Assembly (NCBI GenBank): GCA_028869385.1
Contig: JAGWSR010000010.1
Location: forward strand, 1 to 64,000
Reading direction: 5' to 3'
Origin: a bacterium
Lineage (GTDB): Bacteria > Vulcanimicrobiota > Vulcanimicrobiia > Vulcanimicrobiales > Vulcanimicrobiaceae
Length of the DNA: 64,000 bases
A model generated the notes under the pieces. That model saw only the letters and a list, made by a program, of their open reading frames with translations. It had not been told where the DNA came from and did no database searches. A program made the position numbers and the translations under genes. Of the stretch, positions 948-61,267 are shown one piece after another; the first letter of the stretch is position 1, and every line of letters begins with the position of its first letter.

Positions 948-1991
948 ATGAGCGCTATCAACGATCCGTACTTCGATCGAGCGCCGCGCATCGTCATTTG
1001 GGAAATGACCCGCGCCTGCGCACTCGCCTGCAAACACTGCCGCGCGGAGGCCGTCCCGCGTCGCCACCTCGGCGAACTCACCACCGGCGAGGCCTTTCAC
1101 CTCGTTGACGAGATCGCGCGCCTCGGAGCGCCGCTGCTCGTTTTGAGCGGAGGCGACCCGCTGATGCGCGACGACATCTACAAGATCGTCGAGTACGCGC
1201 GCTTTCGCGGGCTCACCGTCGCCGTGACGCCGAGCGCCACCGGGCGCCTCACCTCCGACGCCCTCGAACGGCTCTACACCGCGGGGGCGCACCGCGTCGC
1301 GCTCAGCCTCGACGCGCCGGACGCGCAGGCGCACGATGCGTTTCGCGGCGTGCGCGGCTCCTACGCACGCACGCTCGCCGCGGTACGCTCCGCGCGCGAG
1401 ATCGGACTCGAGGTCCAGATCAACACGACCATCTCGCGGCGCAACAACGAGCGGGTCGACGAGTTTGTGGATCTGCTCTCGACGCTCGACATCGCGCTCT
1501 GGAGCGTCTTCTTCCTCATTCCGGTCGGGCGCGCGTCACTCGACATGATGCTCGACGCGGCGGAGACCGATCGCGCGTTCGAAGCGATCTATGCCGCATC
1601 CAAACGCGCGCCGTTCGGCGTCAAAACCACCGAAGCACCCGCGTATCGCCGCTTTCTCGCTCAGCGCGACCCGTCGCTCGTGCGCACGGCCGGCATCGGC
1701 GACGGCCGCGGTTTCGTCTTCGTCTCGCACGTCGGCGAGGTCTATCCGAGCGGCTTTCTCCCCGAATCGGCGGGGAACGTGCGCAGCACTCCGCTCGGGA
1801 CGATCTACCGCGAACACCCGCTCTTCGTGCGGCTACGACGCCCATCGACCTTTACCGGCAAGTGCGGCGTCTGTTCCTACAATACGATCTGCGGCGGCTC
1901 GCGCGCGCGTGCCTACGCGACGAGCGGCGATCCGTTCGGCAGCGATCCTTCGTGCTCGTACGTCCCCGAGCGGAGCGCGGCGCATGTTTAA
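948..1991 (+). CDS. Radical SAM/SPASM protein, TIGR04053-like (AhbD-related)
   Basis: 347 residues. The radical SAM cluster motif CxxxCxxC lies at Cys24, Cys28 and Cys31, followed by an SGGDP segment for SAM binding. The C-terminal SPASM/twitch region has CGVCSYNTICGG plus a last Cys near the end, binding an auxiliary Fe-S cluster. The LWSVFFLIPVGR and FGVKTTEAP stretches resemble what I remember of TIGR04053 proteins, which are relatives of AhbD, the enzyme that oxidatively decarboxylates Fe-coproporphyrin III to heme. It overlaps the following AhbC-like gene by 8 bases, so the two are probably one transcript and one pathway. A role at the AhbD step is inference; a peptide-modifying role is less likely because no precursor peptide is seen. 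Confidence 0.75.
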   Translation: MSAINDPYFDRAPRIVIWEMTRACALACKHCRAEAVPRRHLGELTTGEAFHLVDEIARLGAPLLVLSGGDPLMRDDIYKIVEYARFRGLTVAVTPSATGRLTSDALERLYTAGAHRVALSLDAPDAQAHDAFRGVRGSYARTLAAVRSAREIGLEVQINTTISRRNNERVDEFVDLLSTLDIALWSVFFLIPVGRASLDMMLDAAETDRAFEAIYAASKRAPFGVKTTEAPAYRRFLAQRDPSLVRTAGIGDGRGFVFVSHVGEVYPSGFLPESAGNVRSTPLGTIYREHPLFVRLRRPSTFTGKCGVCSYNTICGGSRARAYATSGDPFGSDPSCSYVPERSAAHV

Positions 1992-3153
1992 CGTCACCAA
2001 GATCATCTGCGGTCGCGAGCAGCCGATGGACGCGCTGCGCTACGGCGAAGGGCGCGAGGCTCCGGCATCGGCGGCCGCGCGTCGCCCCGTCGTCGTGTGG
2101 AACGTCACGCGAACGTGCAATCTGCGATGCACGCACTGCTACAGCGATTCGGCCCCGGAAAAGTACGACGAACTCTCGTTCGACGAAGGCCGAGCGCTGC
2201 TGGACGATCTCGCCGCCTTCGGCGTCCCGGCCGTCCTCCTCTCGGGCGGCGAACCGCTCGCCCGACGCGACACGCTCGAGCTCGCCGCGTACGCGCGCTC
2301 GCTCGGGCTGAAGTTGACGCTCTCGACCAACGGCACGCTCGTCGATGAAGCGACGGCACGCCGCATCAAAGATCTCGGCTTCACCTATGTCGGCATCTCG
2401 TTCGACGGCCTCGGCGCGACGAACGATCGCTTTCGCGGCGTCGCAGGCGCGTTCGAGCGCGCGCTACGCGCGATTCGCAATCTCAAAGCCGTCGGACAGA
2501 AGGTCGGTCTGCGCCTGACGCTCACGCCGAATACCGTGGCCGACCTCGACGGCATCTTCGACTTCATCGAGTCCGAGCAGATCCAGCGCGCCTGCTTTTA
2601 CCATCTCGTTCCGGCCGGACGCGGCAGTTCGCTCGTCGCGCTCTCTCACGACGATACGCGCGCGGCCTTGGACCGTATCTTCGAGCGCACGCAGGCGCTC
2701 GCGCGCAAGGGCGATCCCCGCGAGATCCTCACCGTGGACAATCATGCCGACGCCGCCTACGCGACGATGTGGCTCGAACGTACCGGAGCGCCGCACGCCG
2801 AAAGCGCGCGTGCGGCCCTCGCGTGGAACGGCGGCGCGAATCACTCGTCGGGCATCGGCATCGCCGATATCGATTGGCTCGGCAACGTGCATCCCGATCA
2901 ATTTCTCCAGAACATCACGCTCGGCAACGTGCGCGAGCGGCCGTTCAGCGAGATCTGGAGCGATCCCGAGCAACCGGTCCTCTCCAAACTTCGGCGACGG
3001 CGCGAGTTCGTGGGCGGGCGCTGCCGGTCGTGCAGCTTCTTCGCGACCTGCGGCGGAAATTTCCGCGCGCGCGCATTTGGGATGACCGGAGACCTTTGGG
3101 CCGAGGATCCCGGATGCTACTTGAGCGACGCCGAGATCGCGCAGACGGCTTAA
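1984..3153 (+). CDS. ahbC: AhbC/NirJ-type radical SAM protein (12,18-didecarboxysiroheme deacetylase-like)
   Basis: 389 residues. The N-terminus MFNVTKIICG...DALRYG matches the opening of AhbC proteins, followed by VVVWNVTRTCNLRCTHC with the CxxxCxxC triad at Cys45, Cys49 and Cys52, an LSGGEPL loop, and a SPASM-like C-terminus with CRSCSFFATCGGN and a final Cys in EDPGCYL. AhbC removes acetate side chains from 12,18-didecarboxysiroheme in the siroheme-dependent heme route; NirJ does related chemistry for heme d1. The DALRYG start favours AhbC. No other ahb or nir gene lies in the window. The stop codon overlaps the stop of the convergent gene by 4 bases. Confidence 0.8.
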   Translation: MFNVTKIICGREQPMDALRYGEGREAPASAAARRPVVVWNVTRTCNLRCTHCYSDSAPEKYDELSFDEGRALLDDLAAFGVPAVLLSGGEPLARRDTLELAAYARSLGLKLTLSTNGTLVDEATARRIKDLGFTYVGISFDGLGATNDRFRGVAGAFERALRAIRNLKAVGQKVGLRLTLTPNTVADLDGIFDFIESEQIQRACFYHLVPAGRGSSLVALSHDDTRAALDRIFERTQALARKGDPREILTVDNHADAAYATMWLERTGAPHAESARAALAWNGGANHSSGIGIADIDWLGNVHPDQFLQNITLGNVRERPFSEIWSDPEQPVLSKLRRRREFVGGRCRSCSFFATCGGNFRARAFGMTGDLWAEDPGCYLSDAEIAQTA

Positions 3154-5369
3154 GGCGAGAGGGTCGGCGCGAGGCGCGCCTCGATGCGCGTCTCGAACGT
3201 GCGCTGCCACGGAAGCGTGATCCGCAGCGCCGCGACGTGCAGGTTCGGATAGAGCTGCGCGAGGGTCCGCTGCGCGGCGTACCAGAGCAGCGCGCGATTT
3301 CGCGCGTCGGTCTCGTCGGCGATCGGGGCCACGAGCAGCGTGTGATCGGTGACGCCGCGCGCGTCGAGCCAGGCGTTGAGCGCCGGGCGCACGGCAACGT
3401 GGAAGTCGACATCGTCGGCGAAGCGCATGAAGGTAAACGTGGCGTGCGCGAGCGCGTCGTATCGCCCGACGCGCCGTCCGCTGCCCGCCGCGATCGCCTC
3501 GGCGAGCGCCGTTCCGACGGTGTTCGCATCGGTATTCCACGACGCGTAGGCGTCGAGCCGCGAGGCGACGCCGTCGTCGAGCAGACGCTGCGCGAAGGCG
3601 CCTTGATCCTCGTACGAACCCTCGAACGAAAGATCGGCGAGCGCGACGGGCACGTCTGCCGCGATGCTAGAGCGCATCGCCTGCACGAATGCGCGGTCGA
3701 GCACCGCGCCGGTGTGCGGCACGCGCACGAAGAGCGTGAGATCGGGGTGGAGATCGTCGCGCACACCGCCGCAGCGCGCGATGAGCCGCGCGATCGTGTC
3801 GCCGATCGACGCAAACTCGAGCGGATCCTGATAGGCCGCACCATCCGGTGTCGAGTAGCGAATCGCGACGCGCGGCCGCCAGCGGGCGCCCCGCGCGAGC
3901 GCACGCGCGACGTAGGCCATCCCGAGTTCGTCGGCGCCCGGCTCGATCGCGACGCGATCGCCGAGTCCGAGCGCATCGGCGTATGCCGCGAGCGCACGAT
4001 ACTCCGGCACGTGGAGCCCGTACGGCTTGGCGTCGTCCTGTCCGAGCACCACCTCGTCGAAGCTCCCGGCGCGCACGCGCTCGATGAGGAGACGATCCAA
4101 GCCATAGTCGCGCGTTCGTGCATCGAGGTACGCGCGCAACAGCGGTTCGCCGATCAGCGCCCGCAGCCGAGCCGCGTCGGCGCGTTCCGAGGGGAGCGGC
4201 GGATCGTGCAGATTCGCGTAGGCCTGCAGATACGTCCATGCCGGATAGGCCGCGAAGAACGAGGCGCCATCGCCGATCGGCGGAACGCCGGTCGGCGCGA
4301 GACGCATGATCGTACCGAAGACGCCGATCCATGCGCGCGGCGCTCGCGCGCGCAAGCGGTCGAGCGCGCGCAGGCGCAGCACGGCGGTCGCATACGGCGT
4401 CGCCGGCACGCGCGACGCCACGAGTCCACCGTAGAGCAGCATGTCGCTCGAGAGCACGTACGCATCGCTCGCGGGCGCACGACCGTAGAGCCACGCGACG
4501 ATCGCATCGGGATCGCCGAAGCGCAGATAGTGTCCGAGCAACGCGCGCGGCGGCTCGACGACGCGCCGTCCGGCGATCTCGCCCAGCAGCTCCGGCAATT
4601 GCTGCGTCACCGGGCGATCGTCGAGCGGCACGTACACGATCGGCGGTTGCGCGGCGCGCGCGCTCGACGTCGCGAAGAGGGCGATCAATGCGAGCGGGAG
4701 CAGCCATCGCGCGACGAGTGGCAGCACGATGGCGGTAAGAACCGCGTTGAGACCCATGGCGAGCCCGGAAAATGCCGACGCCGAGCGATCGAGCGCGAAG
4801 AGGCGCGCGGTTCCGACGCCGTGCGACGCGGTGCCGATCGCCACGCCCGCGATGCGATGCGGCGCGCGTGAGAGCACGGCGCGCGCGACGAGTGCGCCGA
4901 CGACACCGCTCAGCACCGCGAAGACGCCCGCGAGCGCCGGTATGCCGCCGATCTGCGCGCTCACCGCCATCGCGACCGGCGTCGTCACCGCCTTCGAGGC
5001 GAACGAACGCACGATCGCATCGCTGCAGCCGAAGGCGCGAGCGAGCCACACCGCCGAGAGCACGATCGCGGCCGAACCGCAGACGAGCGCGCTCACGATC
5101 GCCGCCGCGTCGCGCGCGATCGCGCGGAGTTCGCGAAAGAGCGGCACGGCGAGCGCGATGGTGGCCGGAATGAGGAGAAACGAGAGGCCCGACGTCGCGC
5201 GAGCGTAGCGCGCGTAGGGCGTATGCGTGAGCGCGAGCGCGGCGATGAGCGCGAGCGTGCTCGTGACGACCGGATGCAGCAGCGGCGTATCGCCGCAGGC
5301 ACGCGCCAAGCGCTGCGCCACGAGATAGACCCCGATCGTCGCGCTCGTCCAAAGCACCACGCTCAGCAT
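3150..5369 (-). CDS. LrgB-like membrane protein fused in frame to a DUF4127 protein
   Basis: 739 residues with no stop between two parts. Residues 1 to about 230 are a multi-helix LrgB/YohK-like membrane domain (for example TPVAMAVSAQIGGIPALAG). The rest begins QPPIVYVPLDDRPVTQQLP and has DAYVLSSDMLLYGG, both typical of DUF4127 proteins. The join, LPLALIALFATSSARA, reads like a signal peptide of a formerly separate DUF4127 protein, so the junction helix may be that signal. An internal Met a little upstream of the junction could still start a free DUF4127 protein. The ATG overlaps the LrgA stop codon. It is the last gene of the muropeptide-recycling run, suggesting a part in handling cell-wall fragments, but neither domain's biochemical role is firmly known to me. 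Confidence 0.78.
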   Translation of the reverse strand: MLSVVLWTSATIGVYLVAQRLARACGDTPLLHPVVTSTLALIAALALTHTPYARYARATSGLSFLLIPATIALAVPLFRELRAIARDAAAIVSALVCGSAAIVLSAVWLARAFGCSDAIVRSFASKAVTTPVAMAVSAQIGGIPALAGVFAVLSGVVGALVARAVLSRAPHRIAGVAIGTASHGVGTARLFALDRSASAFSGLAMGLNAVLTAIVLPLVARWLLPLALIALFATSSARAAQPPIVYVPLDDRPVTQQLPELLGEIAGRRVVEPPRALLGHYLRFGDPDAIVAWLYGRAPASDAYVLSSDMLLYGGLVASRVPATPYATAVLRLRALDRLRARAPRAWIGVFGTIMRLAPTGVPPIGDGASFFAAYPAWTYLQAYANLHDPPLPSERADAARLRALIGEPLLRAYLDARTRDYGLDRLLIERVRAGSFDEVVLGQDDAKPYGLHVPEYRALAAYADALGLGDRVAIEPGADELGMAYVARALARGARWRPRVAIRYSTPDGAAYQDPLEFASIGDTIARLIARCGGVRDDLHPDLTLFVRVPHTGAVLDRAFVQAMRSSIAADVPVALADLSFEGSYEDQGAFAQRLLDDGVASRLDAYASWNTDANTVGTALAEAIAAGSGRRVGRYDALAHATFTFMRFADDVDFHVAVRPALNAWLDARGVTDHTLLVAPIADETDARNRALLWYAAQRTLAQLYPNLHVAALRITLPWQRTFETRIEARLAPTLSP

Positions 5370-5733
5370 CGCCGCACCCGTCGATGCACGAGCGTGCCGA
5401 CTCCGGCCGCGACCGCAACCCCGATCAACGTGGAGAGCACGAGCGTCACCGTCACGCCGAGCCACGAGCGCGCGAGCAGCGTTCCGTACTGCATCGCACC
5501 GACGCACGCGGGCACGAAGAGGAGCGCGAACCAGCGCAGCAACGCGTGCGCCGCGCGATCGATCGGCGCATCCACCTTGCGGCGCAACGCAAAGATCCCG
5601 AGCAGCACGAGCATCCCGAAGACGGCGCTCGAAAAACGCACGTGGAGCGCGGCGAGCGCCCCATCGCAGAGCGCGGCATACGCGACGAAGCCCGCGAGGG
5701 CGAGCGCGATCTTGCGCGTGCGCACGGCGTCTC

Positions 5734-5737
<4 letters not shown>
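5363..5737 (-). CDS. lrgA: LrgA/CidA family membrane protein
   Basis: 124 residues with four hydrophobic segments and the LrgA-like stretch FSSAVFGMLVLLGIFAL. The GTG start at 5737 overlaps the MurQ stop (GTGA), and the stop overlaps the LrgB start, giving the usual lrgA-lrgB order. LrgA/CidA proteins form inner-membrane holin-like or transport complexes with LrgB; some LrgAB pairs move small organic acids. Here the setting in a cell-wall recycling run suggests a link to lactate or pyruvate released by MurQ or to wall turnover, which is inference. Confidence 0.82.
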
Positions 5738-6611
<874 letters not shown>

Positions 6612-6615
<4 letters not shown>

Positions 6616-7523
6616 GCGTCCTCCGCGACGAGCAGCGCGCGCGCGAGCGCGAGCGCGCCGTACTCCGGCCGCGGCGGCGCCTTGAGCGGCTGCACGAACG
6701 GCATCTCGTTCGAGATGCGCGTCTCCAGCAAAAAGCTCAGGAGCGAATTCGACGCGAGCAAGCCGCCGGCGAGGACGAGCGGCAGCTCGCGATTGCGCAC
6801 GTCCGCCGCTCGAACGAGGGCCTTCAGCAATTCGTAGAGATCGAGTGCCGCCGCTTGCACGATTTTGGTCGCGCTGCGTTCGCCCGCGGTCGCGGCGTCG
6901 AGCACGAAGGGAGCGATGGCCGCGATCTCGCGCACCGGTGCGGGTGCCTCGTAAATGCGCGCGAGCACGTCCTGCGCCTGCGATGCGTGCAGATGCGCAG
7001 CGATGCGCGCGAGCATCGCATCGTGCGGGGCGCGGCCGTCGTACATTTTGAGGAGCAGGCGCAGCGCGGCCGCGCCGATCGCGTAGCCCGAGCCTTCGTC
7101 GCCGAGCAGATGCCCGTATCCACCGCAGCGCACGAAGCGCTCGCCGACGACCGCACACGCGATCGTTCCGGTTCCCGCGACGAGCGCGAGCGCGTCGCCT
7201 TCGGGGACTCCGGCGCGCAGCGCGATGCGCGCATCGTCGCTCACGCCGATCCGGGTACCGCGCAGGTGCTCCGCGAGTGCGTCGCGCAGCGCGTGCGCCA
7301 CGTCGTCGCGCCCCGCACCGGCGGCGCCGACGAAGACGGCGTCCGGGCGCATCGCGCCGAGCGCCGCGCCCACCGCCTGCGCGATGCACGCGGCCGAGGC
7401 GGCGATCCCGGCGACGCGCACGTTCGCCGGATCGCCCGCGTAGGTTCCGAGCGGCAGTTCGTCGCGCATCGCGACGACGTTCGTGGAACTCCCACCCGCG
7501 TCCACACCCACGATCACCGACAC
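6612..7523 (-). CDS. BadF/BadG/BcrA-type amino-sugar kinase (GlcNAc kinase-like)
   Basis: 303 residues of the ASKHA kinase fold: phosphate-1 loop GVDAGGSSTN at the N-terminus, LVAGTGTIA, LLGDEGSGYAIG and LAGGLLAS. Such kinases phosphorylate N-acetylglucosamine or N-acetylmuramic acid. Placed between AnmK and MurQ, its likely substrate is the GlcNAc released by NagZ. Two GTG starts are possible, 7523 and 7517. I chose 7523 because a GGAGG lies about 10 bases upstream; 7517 would give the same 4-base overlap used elsewhere in the operon. Confidence 0.85.
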
Positions 7524-8659
7524 GATTTGGCTACCTCCATCACGAGACGCGCGAGTCCATAGGGAGCGATCCCGCCGAGCGTAACCGCGCGCGCGGCACC
7601 CGTGACCCGCGGAACGTTCGCCGCGCGCTCGCGCAGCGTCTCGAACCCGAGGATCGCGAACGCGATCGCTTCGCGCGCATCGCTCGGCACGCCCATCGCA
7701 TCGGTCGGTTCGATGGCGCAATGCGGAAGTCGTGCCTGCAATCGCTGCATGAGCGCGAGATTTCGGACGCCGCCGCCGCCGACGACGATGCGCGGCGCTC
7801 GCAGGCCGAGATCGGCGATCGCGTCGCCGAGCGTCGCCGCGGTGAGCTCGGTGAGCGTCGCGCAGCCGTCCTCCAACGAGAGCGGGCCGAGCAACGCGCG
7901 ATGCATGCGGAGGAAGTGCTCGCCGAAACGTTCGCGGCCGGTCGTCTTCGGCGGCTCAGCGGCAAAATACGGATCCGCCAGCATCGCGGCGAGCGCGCGT
8001 TCGTCGCAACGGCCGAGGCTCGCGAACGCTCCGTCGGCATCCAGCGCGAGTGCGCCATCGGTACGTTCGAGCACGAAGGCATCGAGGAGCATGTTCCCCG
8101 GTCCCGTGTCGAAGGCGAGCACGTCGTACGGGGTCGATCCGCGCGGCAGCGCCGTGAGGTTGGCGATGCCGCCGATGTTGACGGCGACGCGATCCTCGCT
8201 CGCGCTCGCGAAGAGCATCGCATCGACGTAGGGAACGAGCGGCGCACCGTGCCCGCCGACGGCGCAGTCGGCGCTGCGAAAATCGAAACAGACGGTCGTC
8301 GCAAGCGCTTCGCGCACCACGAACGGATCGCCGATCTGCATGGTGACGTGCCGCGCGCCGTCGTGATAGATCGTCAAGCCGTGCATCGCGACGTAATCCA
8401 CCTGCATCGCACCGGCAACGGCCCGTGCCGCCTGCGCGAAGGCGATGCCGAGGTCGCGATGGAGCTCCGCGATCCGCGCGGCCGAGCCATCGCACGGCGG
8501 CAACGTCGCGCGCAAACGCTCGAGGAGCGGCGGTTCGAAGGGCTGCGTCACGAACGCGAGCACTTCGAACGCATACCCGTCACCGTGCGGCTCGAGGCGA
8601 AGCAGCGCGGCATCGATACCGTCGAGCGAGGTCCCGCTCATCAATCCGATTGCGATCAT
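7514..8659 (-). CDS. anmK: Anhydro-N-acetylmuramic acid kinase AnmK
   Basis: 381 residues. Signatures GLMSGTSLDGIDAAL at the N-terminus (ATP-binding), VNIGGIANLT, DTGPGNMLLDAF and VVGGGGVRN are diagnostic. AnmK opens the 1,6-anhydro ring of anhMurNAc and phosphorylates it to MurNAc-6-phosphate, the substrate of MurQ two genes downstream. The ATG overlaps the stop of the upstream hydrolase by 4 bases. Confidence 0.95.
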   Translation of the reverse strand: MIAIGLMSGTSLDGIDAALLRLEPHGDGYAFEVLAFVTQPFEPPLLERLRATLPPCDGSAARIAELHRDLGIAFAQAARAVAGAMQVDYVAMHGLTIYHDGARHVTMQIGDPFVVREALATTVCFDFRSADCAVGGHGAPLVPYVDAMLFASASEDRVAVNIGGIANLTALPRGSTPYDVLAFDTGPGNMLLDAFVLERTDGALALDADGAFASLGRCDERALAAMLADPYFAAEPPKTTGRERFGEHFLRMHRALLGPLSLEDGCATLTELTAATLGDAIADLGLRAPRIVVGGGGVRNLALMQRLQARLPHCAIEPTDAMGVPSDAREAIAFAILGFETLRERAANVPRVTGAARAVTLGGIAPYGLARLVMEVAKSCR

Positions 8660-9693
8660 GGCTGCGTCGCTTCGATCACCGCGTCGTAGAAGGCCGCTCG
8701 CAGCGGACGGGAATCCGAGCGACCGAAATAGACGGTGTTGGTGAGCAGTACGCCCTGCACGTCTCGCTCCGGATCGGCCCAGACGCAGGTCCCGGTGAAG
8801 CCCGTGTGCCCGAAGGTCGAAGGCGAAAAGCGCGCGCCGCACGAGTTCTCGTCGTTGGTCTTGAGCGCCCATCCGAGCCCGCGGCGCAGCACGGGATCGT
8901 AGGCTTGTTCCGTAACCGCCGCGGCCGCGAGCGCGTGCGGAAGACGCGCGCTCGCGCGGCCGCGAAGCGCGCCGAGATAGCTCTCGGTGAGCCGCGCGAC
9001 GTCGGCGGCGCAGCCGAAGAGGCCGGCGTGCCCCGCGACGCCGTTGCAAAGATGGGCCTTCTCGTCGTGCACGGTGCCCTGCACTCGTCCGCGCCACGCA
9101 TCGTCTTCGGTCGCGGGGATCGCCGCGCGCTCGCGCGCATCCGGCCGAAACCCCAACGTGCGCGTGGCGAAGCGGCGCGCGAGCAACGCGGGGAGCGAGC
9201 GTCCCGTGACCCGCGCGAGCACGACGCCGAGCGCGATCATGCCGAGGTCGCTGTAGATGACGCGCTCGCCCGGGCGCGCGACGAGCGGCCGATGCAACGC
9301 GAAGCGCTCGACGTCTTCGTCCAAGAGCGTGCGATAGTCCGCGCCCGAGTTCATCCCCGATGTATGCGCGAGCAGCATGCGCGGCGTGATCGACGCATGG
9401 TCGGTACCGCGCCACGATTCCACGACCGACGCGAGCGGTTCGTCGAGATCGATGCGCCCCTGCGACGCGAGCGCGAGCGCCGCATCCGAGACGAAGAGCT
9501 TGGTGAGCGACGCGAGATCGAAGCGCGTGTCGCAAAAGACGGGTCGCGCCGCGTCGTCCGCGCGCGTGACGCCGTACGCGCGTTCGAACTGCAGCACGCC
9601 GCCCGACTCGACGCGCGCGACCGCCCCGGTGAAGAGGCGCCCCGTCGCCTCGCGCACGATGCGATCGAGCGCGGCGAAGCGTTCAGAGCGCAA
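8656..9693 (-). CDS. Serine hydrolase of the beta-lactamase/penicillin-binding fold
   Basis: 345 residues. The catalytic SLTK (SxxK) tetrad is in DLASLTKLF, the second motif appears as YSD in VIYSDLGMIALG (YxN variant) and the third as HTG in GHTGFTG. No signal peptide is evident, so it probably acts in the cytoplasm. Enzymes of this type are often next to, or fused with, NagZ, and may trim the peptide or ester part of muropeptides; substrate unknown. The only early start I see is TTG at 9693, overlapping the NagZ stop by 11 bases, so the exact N-terminus is uncertain. Confidence 0.82.
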   Translation of the reverse strand: MRSERFAALDRIVREATGRLFTGAVARVESGGVLQFERAYGVTRADDAARPVFCDTRFDLASLTKLFVSDAALALASQGRIDLDEPLASVVESWRGTDHASITPRMLLAHTSGMNSGADYRTLLDEDVERFALHRPLVARPGERVIYSDLGMIALGVVLARVTGRSLPALLARRFATRTLGFRPDARERAAIPATEDDAWRGRVQGTVHDEKAHLCNGVAGHAGLFGCAADVARLTESYLGALRGRASARLPHALAAAAVTEQAYDPVLRRGLGWALKTNDENSCGARFSPSTFGHTGFTGTCVWADPERDVQGVLLTNTVYFGRSDSRPLRAAFYDAVIEATQP

Positions 9694-11185
9694 CGGGCAT
9701 CACCCCCGAAGGCGCGCATCCGCCGAAGAGTACGTCGGCGAGTCCCGCGACGCTCGGCGCTTCGTCGCCGTAGGTTGCGAGCACGTGACGCGCCCGCTCG
9801 AAGCACGCCACGTCGAACGGTTCCTGCATCGACACGACGACGGCATCGGGCTCGCGCTCCACGATGCGCGCGATGGCCGCGGCTTGCGCGGGATGCAGAT
9901 GCGCCCGCCGCGCGAGCAGCAGCGCGCGCCGTCCCGACGCGGCGAGTTCGTCGAGCGCGCGCGCGACCTCGCCTTCGCTCGGATCGAGCGACAGACGCAG
10001 CATCGCGAGCGCCGGGGCCTGCACCGCGAGCGATGCGGCGTCGCGCGCGTCGGTCGCGACGCCGTCGGCGCGCGCACCCTCGAACGAGATCGCAAGCGCG
10101 GTCGTCGGATCGGCATGTGCGATGCCGCGCACGAGCGTCGTCGCACGGCGCGCGATCTCGCGCCCGATACCCGGATGCGGCGGCGACGCATCGAGTGGGA
10201 GCGGCGGCGCCGCGCCGCGCCGCAGGTGCATGACGCGCGCGTTCGCCTCCCGTAAACGCGCGAGCGGCAGGCGCCCGCGCTCGACCGCTTCGGCCAAGCG
10301 ATCGGCGGCGGCGAAGGCAAGATCGATATCCGAACTGATCGTCGCGCAGTCGGCGCCCGCGGCGATCGCGGCGAGCACGCCCTCGACTGTTCCGATGCCG
10401 CGCGCGATCGCGTCCATCTGCATGCAGTCGGTGAAGCAGCATCCGCGAAAACCCCACTCGTCGCGAAAGAGCTCGGTGAGGATGCGTGGTGAGAGCGTCG
10501 CCGGATGCTCGGCGTCGAGCGCCCGCACGATCACGTGCGCGGTCATGAACGCCGACGCGTCGGCCGCGCACGCCGCGAACGGAGCGAAGTCTCGCGCGCG
10601 CAACGTCGCGGCGTCGGCATCGACCACCGGGAGTCCCACGTGCGAATCGAGCGCGGTCGAACCGTGGCCGGGAGCGTGCTTGAAGGTGGGAACCACGCCA
10701 AAGGCGCGCATGCCGTCCGCGAGCGCGCTCGCGAGGCGCGTCGTCTCGCGCGAATCGGAGCCGAACGCGCGCATGCCGATCACCGTGCTCTCGGGCTCGA
10801 GCGCGAGATCCAGCACCGGCGCGAAATCGAGCGTGACCCCGGCGCGCCGAAGGTCGAAGCCGAGTTGTTCGCCCGCGCGCCGGGCGAGCTCCGCGCTGCG
10901 CGTCGCGCCGAGCGCCATCATGGAGGGCAGCGCTTCGACACCATCGTGCAAGCGCGCGACGCGTCCGCCTTCTTGATCGATCGCGACGAGCGCGGGAGGA
11001 TCGTCGAGCGCGCGCAGATCGTCCGCAAGCGCGCGCACCTGGGCAAGATTCTCCACGTTGCGCCCAAAGAGCACGTACGCGCCGAATCCGCCGTCGCGCA
11101 GGCGCGCACGCAACGTCGTATCGAGACGCGCACCGTGCACGCCGGTGGCGATCGCGCCACGCGCGAGGCGCACGAGCTCGCTCAT
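9683..11185 (-). CDS. nagZ: Beta-N-acetylhexosaminidase NagZ (GH3) with a C-terminal domain
   Basis: 500 residues. The GH3 barrel shows AIDQEGGRVARL, the KHAPGHGSTALDSHVGLP segment with the catalytic His-Asp dyad loop, and FTDCMQMDAI with the nucleophile Asp. It removes GlcNAc from GlcNAc-anhydroMurNAc fragments, feeding AnmK and the amino-sugar kinase in the same operon. About 150 residues after the barrel form an extra domain like that of long NagZ proteins. No signal peptide, so cytoplasmic. The start ATG overlaps the ABC ATPase stop by 3 bases. Confidence 0.93.
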   Translation of the reverse strand: MSELVRLARGAIATGVHGARLDTTLRARLRDGGFGAYVLFGRNVENLAQVRALADDLRALDDPPALVAIDQEGGRVARLHDGVEALPSMMALGATRSAELARRAGEQLGFDLRRAGVTLDFAPVLDLALEPESTVIGMRAFGSDSRETTRLASALADGMRAFGVVPTFKHAPGHGSTALDSHVGLPVVDADAATLRARDFAPFAACAADASAFMTAHVIVRALDAEHPATLSPRILTELFRDEWGFRGCCFTDCMQMDAIARGIGTVEGVLAAIAAGADCATISSDIDLAFAAADRLAEAVERGRLPLARLREANARVMHLRRGAAPPLPLDASPPHPGIGREIARRATTLVRGIAHADPTTALAISFEGARADGVATDARDAASLAVQAPALAMLRLSLDPSEGEVARALDELAASGRRALLLARRAHLHPAQAAAIARIVEREPDAVVVSMQEPFDVACFERARHVLATYGDEAPSVAGLADVLFGGCAPSGVMPVAL

Positions 11186-12165
11186 CGCGCCGCCCCGCTC
11201 GCCGCGTCGAAGCGCTTGAGGTCGCGCTCGTCGTATGCGAAGCGTATCGCCGCGCCCACGCTCGGCAGATCGCGTGCGTCCACGCGCGCGACGAGCGCGT
11301 GTCCGTCGAGATCCACGTGCAGGTAGCCGTCGGCTCCCGTGCGCTCGATGCGCCGCACCGTCGCGACGCGCTCGCCCGCGCCGACGCGCACGCGCTCCGG
11401 GCGCAGTCCCACGAGCACGTCGGGGCGCTCGCCGAAGAGCGGCCCCGGCAGGACGTTCATCGGGCGCGCGCCGAGGAGCGCGGCGGCACGAGCGGTAGCC
11501 GGCGCATCGTACACGCGCTGCGGATCTCCGCAATCTTCGATGCGGCCGTCGAGCAGGACCGCGAGCTCGTCGGCGACGGCCATCGCATCGGTGTGGTCGT
11601 GCGTCACCAGCACGATCGGTCCGGCGAAGCGCTCGCGCACGTGCAGCAACTCTTCGCGCACCCGTCCGCGCAGCGCGGGATCGAGTGTCGCGAGCGGCTC
11701 GTCGAGCAACAGCACGTCGGGATCGGAGAGCAACGCGCGCGCGATCGCGACGCGCTGTCGTTCGCCGGTCGAGAGCGCCGAAGGACGATGCTCCAGGTGC
11801 CGCGCGATGTCGAGATACGCGGCCGTCTCTTCGATGCGCTCGCGCGCGTGCGAGCGCGAGCGCACGACGAGCGCGAGGTTCGCGCGGACGGTCAGATGTT
11901 CGGGAAGCGCGGGTTCGGCGAAGACGAGCGCGATGCGGCGCGCCTGCGGCGGCAGTCCTTCGAGCGCACGACCGGCGACCTCGATGCGCCCGCTCGACGT
12001 TCGCACGAGGCCCGCGAGCGCGCGCAGCAGCGTACTCTTGCCCGCGCCCGAGGGGCCGACGACCGCGAGCGTACGCGCCGGCGCGACCTCGAGTCCTACC
12101 CCGGCGAGTGCGGGCAACGAGCGTCCGTCATACGTGACGCGAAGATCGTGCGCGCGCAGGGTCAT
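11182..12165 (-). CDS. ABC transporter ATP-binding protein (sugar/MalK-like)
   Basis: 327 residues: Walker A GPSGAGKST, signature LSTGERQRVAIARAL, Walker B VLLLDEP with the catalytic Glu, switch His in LVTHDH, then a C-terminal OB-type (TOBE) domain from about residue 235. This layout belongs to importers of sugars and similar solutes. It is the first gene of the recycling operon, but no permease or binding protein is near, so it either energises permeases encoded elsewhere or is an orphan. A role in taking up wall fragments is inferred from context. Confidence 0.85.
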   Translation of the reverse strand: MTLRAHDLRVTYDGRSLPALAGVGLEVAPARTLAVVGPSGAGKSTLLRALAGLVRTSSGRIEVAGRALEGLPPQARRIALVFAEPALPEHLTVRANLALVVRSRSHARERIEETAAYLDIARHLEHRPSALSTGERQRVAIARALLSDPDVLLLDEPLATLDPALRGRVREELLHVRERFAGPIVLVTHDHTDAMAVADELAVLLDGRIEDCGDPQRVYDAPATARAAALLGARPMNVLPGPLFGERPDVLVGLRPERVRVGAGERVATVRRIERTGADGYLHVDLDGHALVARVDARDLPSVGAAIRFAYDERDLKRFDAASGAAR

Positions 12166-38508: not shown

Positions 38509-39666
38509 CTACTCTTGAGAGCCATTCCGTAACCGCCGCTCGAGTTCTTCTGATACCCTTATCGCCGCATCACGCTTCGCTTCGAAGCTCGCGCGCCCGT
38601 ATTTGGAGGTTGTTGATAAGCTTTCGTGCCCCATCATCTCCTTCACGACCAGCGGGTCGACGTGACCGCGAGTGATCGAGGCGAAGCCGTGGCGCGAACC
38701 GCCAAGCCGCAAAGGCGTAAGGCCAGCCTTGCGAACCGCTTTACTGTAGGCCTTTCCGAACGCGTCAGGGTGCCAGTGCACGCCCATGCCATTGTCAAAG
38801 AGCGGGGTCTGCCCGTCAGCGACAATGCCGAACAGCCTTAGGCGAGCCGTCTGCTCCACCAAGTATGCTTGCAGCAAGTTCAACAGGTACGGTGAGAGCG
38901 GGATCGTTCTTTGTCCGAGGTTCGTTTTCGGGGCTTTGACATCGCGTCGCCCGTCCCGAAACATCAATGCTTCGCGAACTCGAAAGCAGCCGTTCTTCAG
39001 ATCGAGATCGCGACGTCGTAGCGCGAGCAATTCGCCACGCCTGAATCCACAATTGAACGCCGTCCAAATCGCTTCAAATAGACTGGTGCCCTGTAATGCT
39101 CCCAAAACTGTTGCAGCGTGATCCGCATCGGCTTCAGGTGGCTCCGGAGTACGGTTTGGAAGGCGATCGACCAACTCGACGGGATTGCTGTTGCATAAAC
39201 CTTTCGCTCGCGCATAACGCATCGCCATCGAAAGGATCGTCAGGGGAGCATTGAGCGTTTTGTTTCTCCGTCCGCCGACTTTCGAGTCGAAGCGCTCTCC
39301 ACGCTTCCACGTATCAAGCGCGTCTTGAATGTGCGGCGTCGTGAGCTTCGATACGAGAAGGTGGCCGATCGATGGTTTCAGATAGTGGTGTATCTTCGAG
39401 CGATAGTCCGCGAAGGTGCGGTACTCGATGCGGGCTCTGCGATCCTCGAGCCACAGATCGAGCAACTCGGTCACGGTGATCTTATTCGGATCTAGGTTCG
39501 TACCGCGCATGATTTCAGTGATGGTCGCCGCAACGAGCGCATCTATCTCTTTTCGAGTTTGCGCTTTGAGGCGAATCTGGCGCCGGCGCCCATCGGGCCG
39601 CCTTCCCGCATCGACGCGAGCGTAGAATGTGCCGGACTTGAGATTACGCCGGACAGACCCTTTCAC
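38509..39666 (-). CDS. Tyrosine integrase of the island
   Basis: 385 residues. An N-terminal arm-binding region (GTFYARVDAGRRPDGRRRQI), a core-binding domain (TVTELLDLWLEDR...KLTTPHIQDAL) and a catalytic domain with the first Arg in NCGFRRGELLALRRRDL, Lys in APKTNLGQRTI, the Arg-His of GGSRHGFAS, the GH of MMGHESL and the Tyr nucleophile in SKYGRAS. The usual first His of H-x-x-R is Gly here. It starts at GTG 39666 with AAAGGAG eight bases upstream. It lies 2.5 kb from the left attachment site and probably catalysed insertion into tRNA-Asn. Confidence 0.92.
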   Translation of the reverse strand: MKGSVRRNLKSGTFYARVDAGRRPDGRRRQIRLKAQTRKEIDALVAATITEIMRGTNLDPNKITVTELLDLWLEDRRARIEYRTFADYRSKIHHYLKPSIGHLLVSKLTTPHIQDALDTWKRGERFDSKVGGRRNKTLNAPLTILSMAMRYARAKGLCNSNPVELVDRLPNRTPEPPEADADHAATVLGALQGTSLFEAIWTAFNCGFRRGELLALRRRDLDLKNGCFRVREALMFRDGRRDVKAPKTNLGQRTIPLSPYLLNLLQAYLVEQTARLRLFGIVADGQTPLFDNGMGVHWHPDAFGKAYSKAVRKAGLTPLRLGGSRHGFASITRGHVDPLVVKEMMGHESLSTTSKYGRASFEAKRDAAIRVSEELERRLRNGSQE

Positions 39667-41641: not shown

Positions 41642-42181
41642 ATGACCGATCGTGACCGCTATGCGAAAGTCGTCGACCGCCGGCTGCTCAAGCGCGTGTA
41701 CCGGCTCGTAAATCGCGCGCCCGACGCTCACATCGCGATCTGCGACTACATCGAACTCCGCGAACGGGAGGCAGCCCGCGACGCTCTTGCGCAGACGTTC
41801 GTGACGGCCGACCGACTGCTGCAACGACAAGCGCTGCTGCTCTTAGCGGATCACGATCCACAGATCGCGCAGTTGGAGCAGCGCGGACGTTCGTCGTTTC
41901 CCGAGACGAGGATCGTCGAAGCCTTCCGTGATGCGGAGCAAACCGGTGGAGATCTCGCCGAGGCCTATGCGGCGCGCGAGCTTCGTTGGCTGATTAGCGC
42001 GTCCGTCGCCAATGATGAAGTCGCGCACATCGTTCCGTATCTCGACGAAATTGCGACGAAGATCGTCGCCGAGCTCGCAGACCGGCATCGCGAGAAATTC
42101 CTCGGTATACCACGTGCGACACGGCCGATCAAAAAAGCCGCAAGCGACGTTACCTACGAACAGATTCCGTTTTCTCAATGA
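41642..42181 (+). CDS. Hypothetical helical protein, first gene of the QueC-like/PIN operon
   Basis: 179 residues, predicted almost all helical (RYAKVVDRRLLKRVYRLV, AARDALAQTFVTADRLLQRQ, DEVAHIVPYLDEIATKIVAE), with a loose basic tail. I recognise no domain. The stop TGA overlaps the ATG of the QueC-like gene (ATGA), so the two proteins are made together and may form a complex. It lies behind a good promoter and is probably leaderless. Confidence 0.68.
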   Translation: MTDRDRYAKVVDRRLLKRVYRLVNRAPDAHIAICDYIELREREAARDALAQTFVTADRLLQRQALLLLADHDPQIAQLEQRGRSSFPETRIVEAFRDAEQTGGDLAEAYAARELRWLISASVANDEVAHIVPYLDEIATKIVAELADRHREKFLGIPRATRPIKKAASDVTYEQIPFSQ

Positions 42182-43482
42182 TTTGCCCGATTATAGCACG
42201 CGTTCGTTTCTACGACGGAAGCATCGTGATTCAACGCGACGAATTCGGCGCGGAGGAAATTATCGCGCGAATCAACGCGTCGTCACTACACCCATTTTCG
42301 AGCCGCGCAAACCAGCCGTGGCTTTTCGATTTCGTCGATCTTATGGCCTCGTATTATGCCCTTGATCGATTCGCGCTTCGAGGTGCTGATCGATGGGCAC
42401 GCCATTTCATCATTAAGTATCCGGTTCGCCAACACCGAGCCGAGGCTTGGCACTACGCCGCACCAATTCTCCGAGACCTCCTCCTTCGTATCACAGGTGA
42501 TGTTGTAGAAATCGTTGCCGTGCCGTGGGAAGGAACGGCTGACCGCATTTCGCACCCGGTGCTTCCGCTGAACCAAGAGGGCTCATCGGTCGGGCTCTTC
42601 AGCGACGGGCTGGACTCGCTGTGCGGACTCGATGTCGCCATTGCCGACAAGCGCGATATCGTTTGGGCCTCGATAACCACTGGGCACAAAGGGAAACGCA
42701 TCCGAGAAACGCTCGACCGCAGCGCCGTGCCCGCGGAGCGCCGTTACTCCATGTCGCTCATGCTCGGTAAAGGGCAGAACGATAAGGAGCATACGCAAAG
42801 GTCGCGTACGGCGGTTGCGATCGCGATGGGGATGACGCTTGCATACGCGCTAGACGGCGCGGCCGTCGAATGTTACGAAAATGGGCACGGAATCCTCAAC
42901 TTGCCGATACCGGACTTACAATACGGCTCCATGTCTTCCCAAGCCTTGAATCCGTCGGCGCTACCGTTGTGGGATACGCTTACGCGTATATTGTTTGGGC
43001 AAACCATTGAACTTCGCTTTCCAAATCGATTTCGGACTAAAGGTGAAATGATGCGCATCCTCTCGCCAACAGGCCGGGCGCTCATCGCCGCAACATCCTC
43101 TTGTGACAGTGAACGTCGTCTGCCGGGTGGAGAGCAGCAGTGTGGTTCATGCGGGTCGTGCGTGATTCGTAAGATTTCCATGCGCGTCGCCGGCATCGGC
43201 GATCCAACACGCTACGCGAACGTACCACCTCTCGTGAATGTGCCTCGACTTCTCGACTATCATGCCACGCTGCTTCAGCACAGCCTCACTTCGAAGGATC
43301 CATGGGCTTCGCTTAATCTTCTCCACCACGAGCTTGCTGGCGTAGATCGTTCAGATGACGAACGACTACGCCGCAGTACGAGTAGTCAAACACCGCAGGC
43401 GTTGCGAGATGCAACAGTAAACCTGCTGATGCGATACGTGAACGAGATCAAGGAATGGCTACGGGCGGACTATGCCGCTTGA
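42178..43482 (+). CDS. QueC-like PP-loop ATPase protein (QatC-related?)
   Basis: 434 residues, about twice the length of QueC. After an N-terminal region of about 135 residues comes a PP-loop LFSDGLDSLCGLD (variant of SGGxDS), then ENGHGILNLPIPDLQYGSMSSQA and the QueC-type zinc Cys cluster CDSERRLPGGEQQCGSCGSC. QueC makes 7-cyano-7-deazaguanine from a carboxy precursor with ATP and ammonia; long QueC-like proteins occur in the Qat anti-phage system (QatC) and in type IV CBASS. Neither QatA, QatD nor a CBASS cyclase is here. It overlaps the genes on both sides, so it is part of one operon. Likely chemistry: ATP-dependent activation of a carboxylate, on a base or a protein; substrate unknown. 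Confidence 0.78.
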   Translation: MICPIIARVRFYDGSIVIQRDEFGAEEIIARINASSLHPFSSRANQPWLFDFVDLMASYYALDRFALRGADRWARHFIIKYPVRQHRAEAWHYAAPILRDLLLRITGDVVEIVAVPWEGTADRISHPVLPLNQEGSSVGLFSDGLDSLCGLDVAIADKRDIVWASITTGHKGKRIRETLDRSAVPAERRYSMSLMLGKGQNDKEHTQRSRTAVAIAMGMTLAYALDGAAVECYENGHGILNLPIPDLQYGSMSSQALNPSALPLWDTLTRILFGQTIELRFPNRFRTKGEMMRILSPTGRALIAATSSCDSERRLPGGEQQCGSCGSCVIRKISMRVAGIGDPTRYANVPPLVNVPRLLDYHATLLQHSLTSKDPWASLNLLHHELAGVDRSDDERLRRSTSSQTPQALRDATVNLLMRYVNEIKEWLRADYAA

Positions 43483-44656
43483 TGGCCTCGAGCTTAACCC
43501 AAGCCTTATCGGGCAAAATATAGCCGCTGCCCGTCGCAGCTGCAATCTAAACCAAGCCGATCTCGCACGTGCGATCGGAGTTTCGCGTCCGACCCTCATT
43601 GCCATCGAATCCGGCCAACGTACGCCGTCGCCAATTGTGCTGGCGGCAATCGCCGCGGAACTGCGGGTTAACGTGCGTGACCTCGCTGTTTTGCCCCCTC
43701 CCGATGTCCAGTCAGCGGTGCGCTTTCGGGACCCGCTACGCAACAATGAGCCCGCGGAGCCTGCATACCGTGCGCTGGTAGCGTTTGGGCGGACGTATCG
43801 CTTTCTCGAAGAGAAGGCCAATATCAGATTTCGCCCGCGATCGGTTCCGCCGGTACTCGTCGACGAGGTGGAAGACGTCGATCTTGCAGCGGAGACGCTC
43901 GCCGCAAGTGAACGTGCGCGACTTTCCCTCGGCGACGGACCTATCGTTGACCTTCGGGGCGTCCTCGAGCAGGACGCCGGCATTCTGGTCTTTGCACTCC
44001 CGCAGCTAGCGGAGACGAAGGGTATTCTGGGGCTCTTTGTATTCTCAAATGAGCTCCCTCTCGTCGGCTTCAATCCGCGACAGCCCGATTACCGTCGGCA
44101 GCAGTGGACTTTAGCCCACGAATATGCGCACTTTTTAACAAATAGATTCGATCTAGAGATTACGTCTGAGGTGGATGCCAGAAAGAGTCGCCGGAAGCAC
44201 GAACAATTTGCTGAAGCATTCGCTGCGAATTTCCTCTTACCAACCTCCGGGGTATCGCGTCGCGTTGCGGAGCTGCTTAGTGGCGCCAAATCTGCGACGG
44301 TAGCGCAGATACTTCTTCTCGCGGATCAGTTTCGGGTCTCGTTCCAGGCGATGTGCAAACGCCTGGAAAGCCTAGGGCGCATACCTAAGGGCACATACGA
44401 ATACGTCATAGATCGTGGCTTTCGGCCGATTGAGGCAGAGCGCAGTCTTGGAATTGAACGACGCACCGAAGCGCTAGAGCCCTATCCTGTCCGCTTTATT
44501 TATATGCTAGCCAGCCTTCGGCGATCAGGCTCAATATCCGAAGGCGACGTTGTAAATTTTCTTCAGACGGATCGGCTAACAGCACGCAGTATCCTCGATG
44601 CGTTTGAAATCGGTTCTGCGTTTCCACTTGACGCTCCGCTGGAGGGTAAATTCTGA
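43472..44656 (+). CDS. XRE HTH fused to ImmA/IrrE metallopeptidase
   Basis: 394 residues. HTH at about 12-70 (IAAARRSCNLNQADLARAIGVSRPTLIAIESG). The ImmA/IrrE (COG2856) zinc peptidase carries HEYAHFL (HExxH) with the third ligand in EQFAEAFAANFLLP. The tail is a helical domain of about 150 residues. ImmA cleaves repressors, and IrrE/DdrO-type pairs switch stress genes; here HTH and protease are in one chain, as in many toxin-antitoxin-like pairs with a following toxin gene. It overlaps the QueC-like stop by 11 bases and the PIN gene by 4, which suggests it controls or neutralises the PIN protein. Confidence 0.88.
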   Translation: MPLDGLELNPSLIGQNIAAARRSCNLNQADLARAIGVSRPTLIAIESGQRTPSPIVLAAIAAELRVNVRDLAVLPPPDVQSAVRFRDPLRNNEPAEPAYRALVAFGRTYRFLEEKANIRFRPRSVPPVLVDEVEDVDLAAETLAASERARLSLGDGPIVDLRGVLEQDAGILVFALPQLAETKGILGLFVFSNELPLVGFNPRQPDYRRQQWTLAHEYAHFLTNRFDLEITSEVDARKSRRKHEQFAEAFAANFLLPTSGVSRRVAELLSGAKSATVAQILLLADQFRVSFQAMCKRLESLGRIPKGTYEYVIDRGFRPIEAERSLGIERRTEALEPYPVRFIYMLASLRRSGSISEGDVVNFLQTDRLTARSILDAFEIGSAFPLDAPLEGKF

Positions 44657-59401: not shown

Positions 59402-61267
59402 TCAGCCTGGCGGCAATGCCATCTCCGCAATGAAGCGGGAGGCCTGCTTTCTGTAGCCCATGTAGCTGGTCGGGTAGGTTACTGTCAAATCTGCCTTGCA
59501 TCGCGTAATCGCAACGAAGAAACTCCTTCGCTCTTCCTGAACTGCCTGCGACGAGTCGCCTTGCTTGACGGCCTGGAAGCTCGGAAACTGCCCCTCGCTC
59601 GCGCCCAATAGATAGACACGGTCGAATTCGAGTCCCTTCGCTCCATGCACGGTCAAAAGCCTCACTCTGCCGGTTGCTGGTGGCGCCTTGGATTCCAAAT
59701 CGAGGCGACGAAGGAATTCGCTTAGCGTTACCTGATCGCTTTGAAGTCCCTTGTGCGTCCTTTCGAGTGTCACCCATATTGGCTGTTCCTCATCAAAGTC
59801 CGCAGCGTACACGTCAGGCGATTGTGCCTGTTGTTCACTAATCCAGGCAAAATACAAGTCGGATAATCCCCAAAAGTCCTTACGCGCTAACAGCTTGCTC
59901 GTGATGTAGTTACACACGTCACTATATCGTTCCGATTCAATCGCACTACGGGAACGCTCGACAAAGATTTCCAGGACAGGCACGTCTGTCGCAGCCGCTT
60001 CCGCGATGATAGTGCTAGCGTCAAGAACCACTCCTGTCACCGTCGCCAGACTATCGCAAAGCGCGTCTAGGTGCCTTCGTTGGAAGCGCTGCGCTAGGCG
60101 TAAGATTGAGTGCAAGAGTACGAGCGGCGGCGAAACAAACTCGAATTGTGGGGTTGGAATCGTAGCCGGTATATCCAAGCCGTTGCATGTCACAAGCAAC
60201 GAATCCAATCGTTTTCGATTTCTAGCCAAGACTGCCGTCTCATCGTATTGTTCAGCCGAAAGAGTTTGTAACTGAGATGCAATCCAAGACTCCTCGGCGG
60301 TTTCAGATGAAAACGATTTTACCGTGATCGATCCTCTTCGATCAATCGCCGATTCAAAGACCGGTGTAACAAATCGTGAGGGATTATGCGCAATCAGGCA
60401 GCTAGCCGCGCGAATTATAGCGTCTGGGCAACGAAAGCTCGTCGGGAGAACCGTAGTCTGCGCGTTAAAGACTTTTGTTGCCTCAGCAAGGCGTCCAACT
60501 GATGCACCGTTCCATTGGTATATCACTTGATCCTGATCTGCCAGCAGTAGCAGGCCAGACGCCCGGTCTTTGCAGATCGCCTCAAGGAGCCGGAACTGCG
60601 CATCATTCGTGTCCTGAAACTCGTCTACACAAATATACTTGTACGTGCGCCGGATCTGTTTCGCTACACCCGGCGTTTCGGCTAAGAGTTTATTCGCAAG
60701 GTATACGAGGAGGGCAAAATCCAGTTCGCCCTTCGCAACCGAGGTGCATACGTACTGCTCAAGAATCTCCGCAACGGTCTCAGCGTCGATCGATGAGTCG
60801 ATGAAGTTAGAGACGGTGCCTTTAGTCGCGCCGCGCTCCAGGAGGCGACCGATCAGCGGCAAGTAGTCGACGTTCTCGTCAAGGGTACGGCCTGCCGCGG
60901 CTACCGCCTCGGAATAAATCTCTCTTCGGTCGGCACCTTCATTTGAAATATTGAAGTCCGGCTGCAACTCGAGATGAGTCCCGTGCTGCTGAAGAATACT
61001 GGCCGCAAATGAATGAAATGTTCCGATGCGGACGCGCTGCAAGTCATCGCGCGTAAGGTCTTCGAGTCGAGAACGAAGATTTGCGGCTGCCACGTTTGTG
61101 AATGTGATCGCGAGGACGCGATTGTAAGGAGATTCACTTAATACGCGCTCGATACGAGCACGCAATACCGTCGTCTTTCCGGCACCGGGTCCTGCCACGA
61201 CGAGGAGCGGCGTTTCATCGGCCTCGACGATCGCCTTCTGGCTGGCATTCAAGACATACTCGGTCAC
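59402..61267 (-). CDS. gajB: UvrD/PcrA-like helicase, Gabija GajB
   Basis: 621 residues from GTG 61267. SF1A helicase motifs: Walker A VVAGPGAGKTTVL, Ia and Ib region LAITFTNVAA, motif II CVDEFQDTND, motif III LLLADQDQVIYQWNGA, motif V LTVHGAKGLEFDRVYLLG and motif VI FFVAITRCKADL. GajB senses DNA ends or nucleotide loss and works with the GajA nuclease to stop phage. The start overlaps the gajA stop by 4 bases, the standard Gabija arrangement. It is longer than the B. cereus GajB (about 494 residues). Confidence 0.9.
   Translation of the reverse strand: MTEYVLNASQKAIVEADETPLLVVAGPGAGKTTVLRARIERVLSESPYNRVLAITFTNVAAANLRSRLEDLTRDDLQRVRIGTFHSFAASILQQHGTHLELQPDFNISNEGADRREIYSEAVAAAGRTLDENVDYLPLIGRLLERGATKGTVSNFIDSSIDAETVAEILEQYVCTSVAKGELDFALLVYLANKLLAETPGVAKQIRRTYKYICVDEFQDTNDAQFRLLEAICKDRASGLLLLADQDQVIYQWNGASVGRLAEATKVFNAQTTVLPTSFRCPDAIIRAASCLIAHNPSRFVTPVFESAIDRRGSITVKSFSSETAEESWIASQLQTLSAEQYDETAVLARNRKRLDSLLVTCNGLDIPATIPTPQFEFVSPPLVLLHSILRLAQRFQRRHLDALCDSLATVTGVVLDASTIIAEAAATDVPVLEIFVERSRSAIESERYSDVCNYITSKLLARKDFWGLSDLYFAWISEQQAQSPDVYAADFDEEQPIWVTLERTHKGLQSDQVTLSEFLRRLDLESKAPPATGRVRLLTVHGAKGLEFDRVYLLGASEGQFPSFQAVKQGDSSQAVQEERRSFFVAITRCKADLTVTYPTSYMGYRKQASRFIAEMALPPG

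Follow-up and report, generated by a model that had tools for sequence, protein, structure and literature searches.

The stretch analysed here (the window) comprises 64,000 nt of contig JAGWSR010000010.1 from a bacterium of the Vulcanimicrobiaceae, and its computational analysis, which included comparison genomes and loci, centred on a gene that joins the membrane protein family LrgB to DUF4127. A single stop-free frame on the minus strand (3150–5369, 739 codons) encodes both parts, starting at the LrgB ATG at 5369 and ending with the DUF4127 stop codon TAA at 3150. Profile matching located a complete LrgB domain (PF04172; 4704–5339) spanning positions 1–214 of 214 of the family model, with 205 bits against a cut-off of 25 (E = 1e-60), and a complete DUF4127 domain (PF13552; 3183–4640) spanning positions 1–488 of 489, with 337 bits against a cut-off of 27 (E = 3e-100). 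The fusion is thus real, as stated in the original prediction, which had placed it at 3150–5737. That range is correct if LrgA is included; LrgA is, however, a separate minus-strand gene (5363–5737; Pfam match of 59 bits against a cut-off of 28) with a GTG start at 5737 and a stop codon at 5363, overlapping the MurQ stop codon (GTGA) on one side and the LrgB start (ATGCTGA) on the other. A profile search of the whole window genome (G000) returned a single LrgB match and a single DUF4127 match, both within the fused frame. Against the NCBI CidB/LrgB equivalog TIGR00659, the fused LrgB scored 156.5 bits, below the cut-off of 249.7, and is accordingly classed as a family member rather than an equivalog by the NCBI threshold.

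A second, congeneric species (G097, the same as locus L062, DAHUZB010000005.1) carries the same fusion as a protein of 736 residues. The fusion is common to both species at 79% identity; the protein of G097 is one residue shorter at its start and the alignment has a two-residue gap within the last six positions, but it is otherwise free of insertions and deletions, including at the junction. The ratio of non-synonymous to synonymous substitution rates (dN/dS; Nei–Gojobori, NG86) is 0.22 for LrgB (216 codons), 0.47 for the junction (24 codons) and 0.26 for DUF4127 (496 codons), values that point to purifying selection on both fused domains. Chance is a poor account of the open frame, because it has been kept despite differences in 336 of 735 aligned codons and with such low ratios. 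A sequencing error hiding a stop codon, raised originally as a possible artefact, was ruled out by the same stop-free frame in a different metagenome-assembled genome of the genus, and a pseudogene or second copy by the single genome matches together with the purifying selection. The suspicion that all relatives might have two separate genes was likewise not borne out, as both arrangements were found: fused in G097 and separate in the distant genome G087, with the third congener, G098, lacking an LrgB match.

Upstream of LrgA, the minus strand encodes, by Pfam and NCBIfam assignment, the N-acetylmuramic acid 6-phosphate etherase MurQ (5734–6573 for the searched part, with the true start further upstream), a BadF-family kinase that is probably an amino-sugar kinase (6612–7550), the anhydro-N-acetylmuramic acid kinase AnmK (7514–8695), a beta-lactamase-family protein (PF00144; 8656–9693), a NagZ-type beta-N-acetylhexosaminidase of glycoside hydrolase family 3 (GH3; 9683–11200) and, as the next gene of the conserved run, the ATPase of an ATP-binding cassette (ABC) transporter (11182–12165). 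AnmK scored 308 bits against the Pfam cut-off of 24, and its best NCBIfam equivalog match (386.8) fell just below the cut-off of 387. The shortened MurQ query exceeded the threshold of NF003915 (350.6 against 168) and fell just below that of TIGR00274 (301.6 against 302), whereas the NagZ assignment exceeded that of NF003740 (223.8 against 207), with NagK at 85, below 370. NagZ, AnmK and MurQ, which form a known recycling pathway, therefore all lie within one gene run, with the fusion at its end as originally proposed. The NagZ, beta-lactamase-family, AnmK and MurQ genes are shared with N-acetylmuramic acid (MurNAc) operons of the ybbC-H/murQ type, to which the window adds the BadF-type kinase, DUF4127 and, as a rarity, LrgAB. 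In summary, a tightly overlapped operon for murein-sugar recycling ends, in two species of one genus, with a gene that encodes LrgB and DUF4127 as a single chain under purifying selection.

The wider association was assessed in 56 phylum-like loci (L062–L117), mostly titled Eremiobacterota or simply as a bacterium, with L090 and L115 titled Rhodospirillales. After exclusion of three with short flanks, 53 loci with at least 700 bases before DUF4127 were retained, and in 49 of these a MurQ gene precedes DUF4127 on its own strand by at most 4 kb; L095, L098, L105 and L114 had no MurQ within those limits. AnmK accompanied MurQ in 45 of the 49 and NagZ did so in 37, with loci at contig ends counted. 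DUF4127 is thus a regular, usually the last, member of the recycling operon, and LrgAB an occasional one, so that the proposed link of both families to wall turnover is upheld for DUF4127, while for LrgB it rests on three genomes. Separately, 0.3–3.6 kb lie between the MurQ match and DUF4127 in 14 loci (L067, L079, L090, L093, L094, L096, L100–L104, L107, L110 and L115), so this slot may host other genes; in L107, which belongs to genome G061, one of them reads as a secreted phosphoesterase by eye. On the other side of the fused gene, two tandem radical S-adenosylmethionine (SAM) proteins (948–3153; the second with a SPASM domain) converge on the end of DUF4127, which the second gene overlaps by 4 bases. 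In a distant clade (L083, L084, L086–L088 and L111), DUF4127 is also followed by a relative of this second protein.

Among 149 genomes of Candidatus Eremiobacterota, profile matches were obtained for DUF4127 in 127, for LrgB in seven and for the fusion in two. LrgB lies just upstream of DUF4127 in three of the seven, fused in G000 and G097 and as a separate gene in G087 (locus L044), where LrgA and LrgB stand between MurQ and DUF4127. In G061, LrgB and DUF4127 are on different contigs; in G076 and G095, the LrgB contigs (3.5 and 4.2 kb) carry neither MurQ nor DUF4127. The LrgB copy of G095 is divided between two frames, G076 has no DUF4127 match anywhere in its genome, and G128 has weak LrgB fragments only, far from its DUF4127. 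Two side observations were made at these loci. The gap between LrgB and DUF4127 in G087 holds a small secreted-looking reading frame beginning MRYVFGIVLSTAVVLG, and in G076 (L047, 1893–3528) LrgB is followed immediately by a protein that looks secreted and is similar, on a reading by eye, to a solute-binding protein of the tripartite ATP-independent periplasmic (TRAP) type. In the third congener, G098, DUF4127 stands alone, with an ATGA overlap with MurQ and its own signal-like start. As the named DUF4127 loci are the 80 best among at least 546 relatives, uncommon fusions in other lineages may have escaped notice; within these 80, tblastn with LrgB returned a single locus (G097), and none among the 24 outside the phylum-like set. 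Searches of viral contigs retrieved no relative of DUF4127 and none of LrgB. The fusion is rare and so far confined to one genus.

A five-gene tree of 53 loci, in which some genomes appear twice (L050/L096 and L055/L073), grouped the window genus with L051 and L064 in a clade with support of 1.0 that leaves G087 outside. LrgAB was not seen at the L051 or L064 locus. Support was weak (0.749) for the order of the three congeners and 0.0 for the node that unites G087 with L055 and L073. The tree is therefore compatible both with loss of LrgAB in G098 and with its gain in the other two congeners. At greater distance, lrgAB either reached the same slot twice or was present early and frequently lost; identities between the window and G087 fit both histories, and old vertical descent is accommodated because LrgB (55%) resembles its operon neighbours NagZ (55%) and MurQ (60%). 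Whichever history holds, the gene order MurQ–LrgA–LrgB–DUF4127 recurs at some phylogenetic distance.

DUF4127 was modelled with AlphaFold2 from an alignment of 50 rows, with a mean predicted local distance difference test (pLDDT) score of 96.7 and a predicted template modelling (pTM) score of 0.95. Sequence searches provided no credible solved relative, and Foldseek with this model no credible whole-domain match. The sole Foldseek match with E below 0.001, to IcmF, was taken as meaningless (query TM score 0.17, root-mean-square deviation 25.8). The DD and WN motifs, which we had taken as a hint of a triosephosphate isomerase (TIM)-barrel glycosidase of the GH84, GH20 or GH18 kind, did not lead to support for that fold, as the barrel matches (xylose isomerases and chitinases) had query TM scores of 0.15–0.21 and deviations of 12–22. 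In the VIA structure list, whose lack of a match excludes nothing, no listed row spans the whole domain, the best one (Z = 9.8) covering 118 of its 502 residues. Residues 3–258 align weakly with the SGNH carbohydrate esterases 4tx1 (Z = 8.3, 169 residues) and 4xvh (Z = 7.1, 162 residues), and residues ~259–420 with Rossmann-like and receiver-like folds, the latter including the best row; most of these scores are in the tool's range for common arrangements. Weak GDSL_2 matches were found in three of the 50 members (best E = 0.0081). The invariant residues include Asp, Glu, Arg, Asn and Trp, and the alignments contain no invariant His, Lys or Cys, nor any His among the nearly invariant columns. 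As a conserved catalytic His is lacking, a Ser–His esterase of the SGNH/GDSL carbohydrate-esterase kind is unlikely.

Gene context within 6 kb of DUF4127 was inspected in 28 loci outside the phylum-like set (24 of the best 80 relatives plus four plasmid loci). FAD_oxidored (PF12831) was found in 12, a NanE-like protein in 12, NanE in five, a ROK kinase in four and NagZ in one, "NanE-like" being our label for a protein of ~235 residues without a Pfam match in two members or an NCBIfam match in one. At least one FAD_oxidored, NanE, NanE-like or ROK gene was present in 22 of the 28, and none in L120, L134, L138, L140, L141 and L143. On plasmids, DUF4127 neighbours NagZ, GH20 and a sugar ABC transporter in Deinococcus, NanE, a phosphotransferase system (PTS) and MurR in Carnobacterium, and ROK, PTS, NanE and MurR in Priestia; the Alkaliphilus plasmid record has no such amino-sugar genes near it. 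These neighbourhoods support a role for DUF4127 in amino-sugar metabolism, as opposed to an exact reaction. Separately, the frequent closeness of DUF4127 in this set to FAD_oxidored and the ~235-residue protein (L131, L127, L122, L118 and others) may reflect an undescribed sugar pathway. No paper naming DUF4127 was retrieved from the full-text collection searched.

The junction (4647–4718) comprises the end of the last LrgB helix and a hydrophobic stretch that reads by eye as a signal peptide, LLPLALIALFATSSARA↓AQ in the window and LLPLLIVGLLVTRAASA↓AE in G097 (arrows mark the apparent cleavage position). The original view that the fusion passes through the signal peptide of DUF4127 is consistent with this signal-like stretch in both fused proteins, on a reading by eye only. 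A hydrophobic start was found in 47 of 50 phylum-like DUF4127 rows, with a mean hydropathy of at least 1.77 over 10 residues; the most hydrophobic start was chosen per row, fused G097 is among the 47, a start motif was found for these 50 rows, and six of the 56 loci gave no row. The three without a usable start are L071, L078 and L094. Seven other loci (L123, L124, L126, L128, L129, L132 and L137) clearly lack a hydrophobic stretch, and L127 and L131 have just 3–5 residues ahead of the first strand. The family is thus not always exported.

For the fused protein, DUF4127 may come to lie outside under two schemes, either with LrgB ending inside and the signal stretch crossing the membrane, or with LrgB ending outside and its helix merely extended. 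An outer-face location, as in the original prediction, is tentatively favoured, since unfused relatives bear export-like starts. The LrgB part of the full-length model was of low confidence (block means 33–63, residues 1–200), with just two LrgB rows as input. A sequence search of solved chains found no credible relative of LrgB, the matches to an aldehyde dehydrogenase (E = 0.0041) and KauB (E = 0.16) being taken as chance. Nothing usable was found in the literature on LrgB topology, on D-lactate as a cargo of the plant plastid carrier PLGG1 or on wall recycling in Eremiobacterota; the chloroplast glycolate carrier is reported in older work to accept D-lactate.

Taken together, these data led us to a tentative reading, which we regard as quite possible. 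LrgA and the LrgB domain would form a channel or carrier for small organic acids, as expected from their family, and its likeliest cargo would be D-lactate, cleaved off MurNAc 6-phosphate by MurQ, which is encoded just before LrgA. D-lactate is an economical guess because LrgAB relatives move small organic acids and the MurQ neighbour releases D-lactate. DUF4127 would be exported and would process amino sugars derived from the wall, as an enzyme of a glycosidase- or lyase-like kind. As lrgB without its stop codon reads into the hydrophobic start of DUF4127 itself, the membrane protein would carry DUF4127 out, where it would either stay anchored next to the pore formed by LrgAB or be released by cleavage at the signal-peptidase motif, which has been retained. 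Rather than a new machine, the fusion probably represents the packaging, within one genus, of a functional neighbourhood that is older.

Background on cargo comes from two sources, which report pyruvate for PftAB of Bacillus subtilis (PMC5626966) and LrgAB of Staphylococcus aureus (PMC8805020), and glycolate/glycerate for the plant homologue (PMC5626966, PMC8805020). MurNAc consists of N-acetylglucosamine and D-lactate, and MurQ is the only known lactyl-etherase according to PMC6572805. In favour of the reading, the lactate permease Lactate_perm (PF02652) was found in 0/8 genomes searched. Several points weigh against it. LrgB occurs in just 7/149 phylum genomes, so LrgAB is dispensable for the recycling pathway. 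Genes of the FAD-oxidase_C family, which includes D-lactate and glycolate oxidases, were present in 8/8 genomes searched, so that internal D-lactate could be oxidised rather than exported. Many hydrophobic starts of DUF4127 homologues span only 9–10 residues before strand 1, fewer than expected of a signal peptide. DUF4127 would lie inside if LrgB ended outside and the added hydrophobic stretch crossed back. D-lactate transport by bacterial LrgAB was not found in the literature consulted. Finally, an S. aureus lrgA mutant grew on lactate like the wild type, as reported in PMC8805020, so lactate is no proven LrgAB cargo.

Signal peptidase I might instead always cut at the A-x-A motif, making the fusion a polyprotein that yields an ordinary LrgB and a secreted DUF4127 and merely saves start and stop signals. 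The motif is visible by eye as A-R-A↓AQ in the window, A-S-A↓AE in G097 and A-G-A↓AQ in unfused G098, each with a hydrophobic core and small residues at −3 and −1. The junction also changes fastest, with ten non-synonymous and four synonymous differences in the 20 codons around the join, yet its hydrophobicity and motif are retained in both fusions. The full-length model, however, spans the junction with one continuous helix (195–237), so the site may be inaccessible; its confidence there is moderate (block means 62–80, residues 201–240). We regard obligate cleavage as possible, if doubtful.

That the lrgB stop codon was lost by accident, with nothing depending on the fusion and DUF4127 perhaps also started internally, would agree with its restriction to one genus, with the absence of an LrgB match in G098 and with the high G+C content, which lengthens stop-free frames. 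This neutral read-through is unlikely, given that the fusion is common to two species at the identity noted above and under purifying selection, and that the in-frame GTG and TTG near the junction of the window are absent in G097. The sole kept ATG lies in the LrgB motif GLAMGLNA and has no Shine–Dalgarno sequence by eye; the unfused LrgB of L045 has the similar LAMGLNA.

The LrgAB family has been linked to the control of murein hydrolases, and the locus is a wall-recycling operon, so that DUF4127 could be such a hydrolase tethered to its holin-like regulator; this is distinctly unlikely, as DUF4127 is frequently near sugar-metabolism genes outside the phylum and as the literature consulted, despite reporting CidA/LrgA as pore-forming (PMC8805020), favours small-molecule transport for LrgAB (PMC5626966, PMC8805020).

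Elsewhere in the window, the G+C content drops from ~66–71% to 52–64% over 36000–64000, a region with a phage-type integrase (38509–39666), a QatC-like gene (42178–43482), a gene with helix-turn-helix and IrrE domains (43472–44656) and a GajA–GajB (Gabija) pair (61264–62943 and 59402–61267). It probably represents an integrated element carrying genes for defence. No tRNA was found in the window.

Among known systems, PLGG1 (AtLrgB), the plant plastid glycolate–glycerate transporter, likewise has LrgB within a larger fused chain and transports small 2-hydroxyacids, the job proposed here for LrgAB. PMC5626966 describes it as probably having arisen from joined lrgA and lrgB homologues, whereas in the window LrgA has a gene of its own and LrgB is fused to the soluble DUF4127 domain. 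PftAB (YsbAB, the B. subtilis pyruvate facilitator) and S. aureus LrgAB resemble the window in their adjacent lrgA and lrgB and in the LrgB family match, but their reported cargo is pyruvate, and no link to MurQ or DUF4127 was found in the literature consulted. The DUF4127 match of the window is full-length, but the domain is fused N-terminally to a multi-pass membrane protein, an arrangement seen elsewhere in the studied loci only in G097.

A bolder version, to which we give little credence, is that DUF4127 represents a new class of exported wall amino-sugar enzyme, with a two-lobed fold unlike any solved whole structure, welded to a D-lactate exporter. If so, the waste product of MurNAc would leave via the same protein that processes the incoming wall sugar, and LrgAB would gain a wall-recycling cargo that explains its old association with murein turnover. 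As a fusion of two known families, the gene is of value chiefly for its hints at the functions of LrgB and DUF4127: the order MurQ–LrgA–LrgB–DUF4127 leads to the hypotheses that LrgAB is the outlet for the D-lactate of MurQ and that DUF4127 is a wall amino-sugar enzyme. The steady place of DUF4127 in the recycling operon across the phylum, and often in amino-sugar clusters elsewhere, will probably prove useful for longer than the fusion itself.

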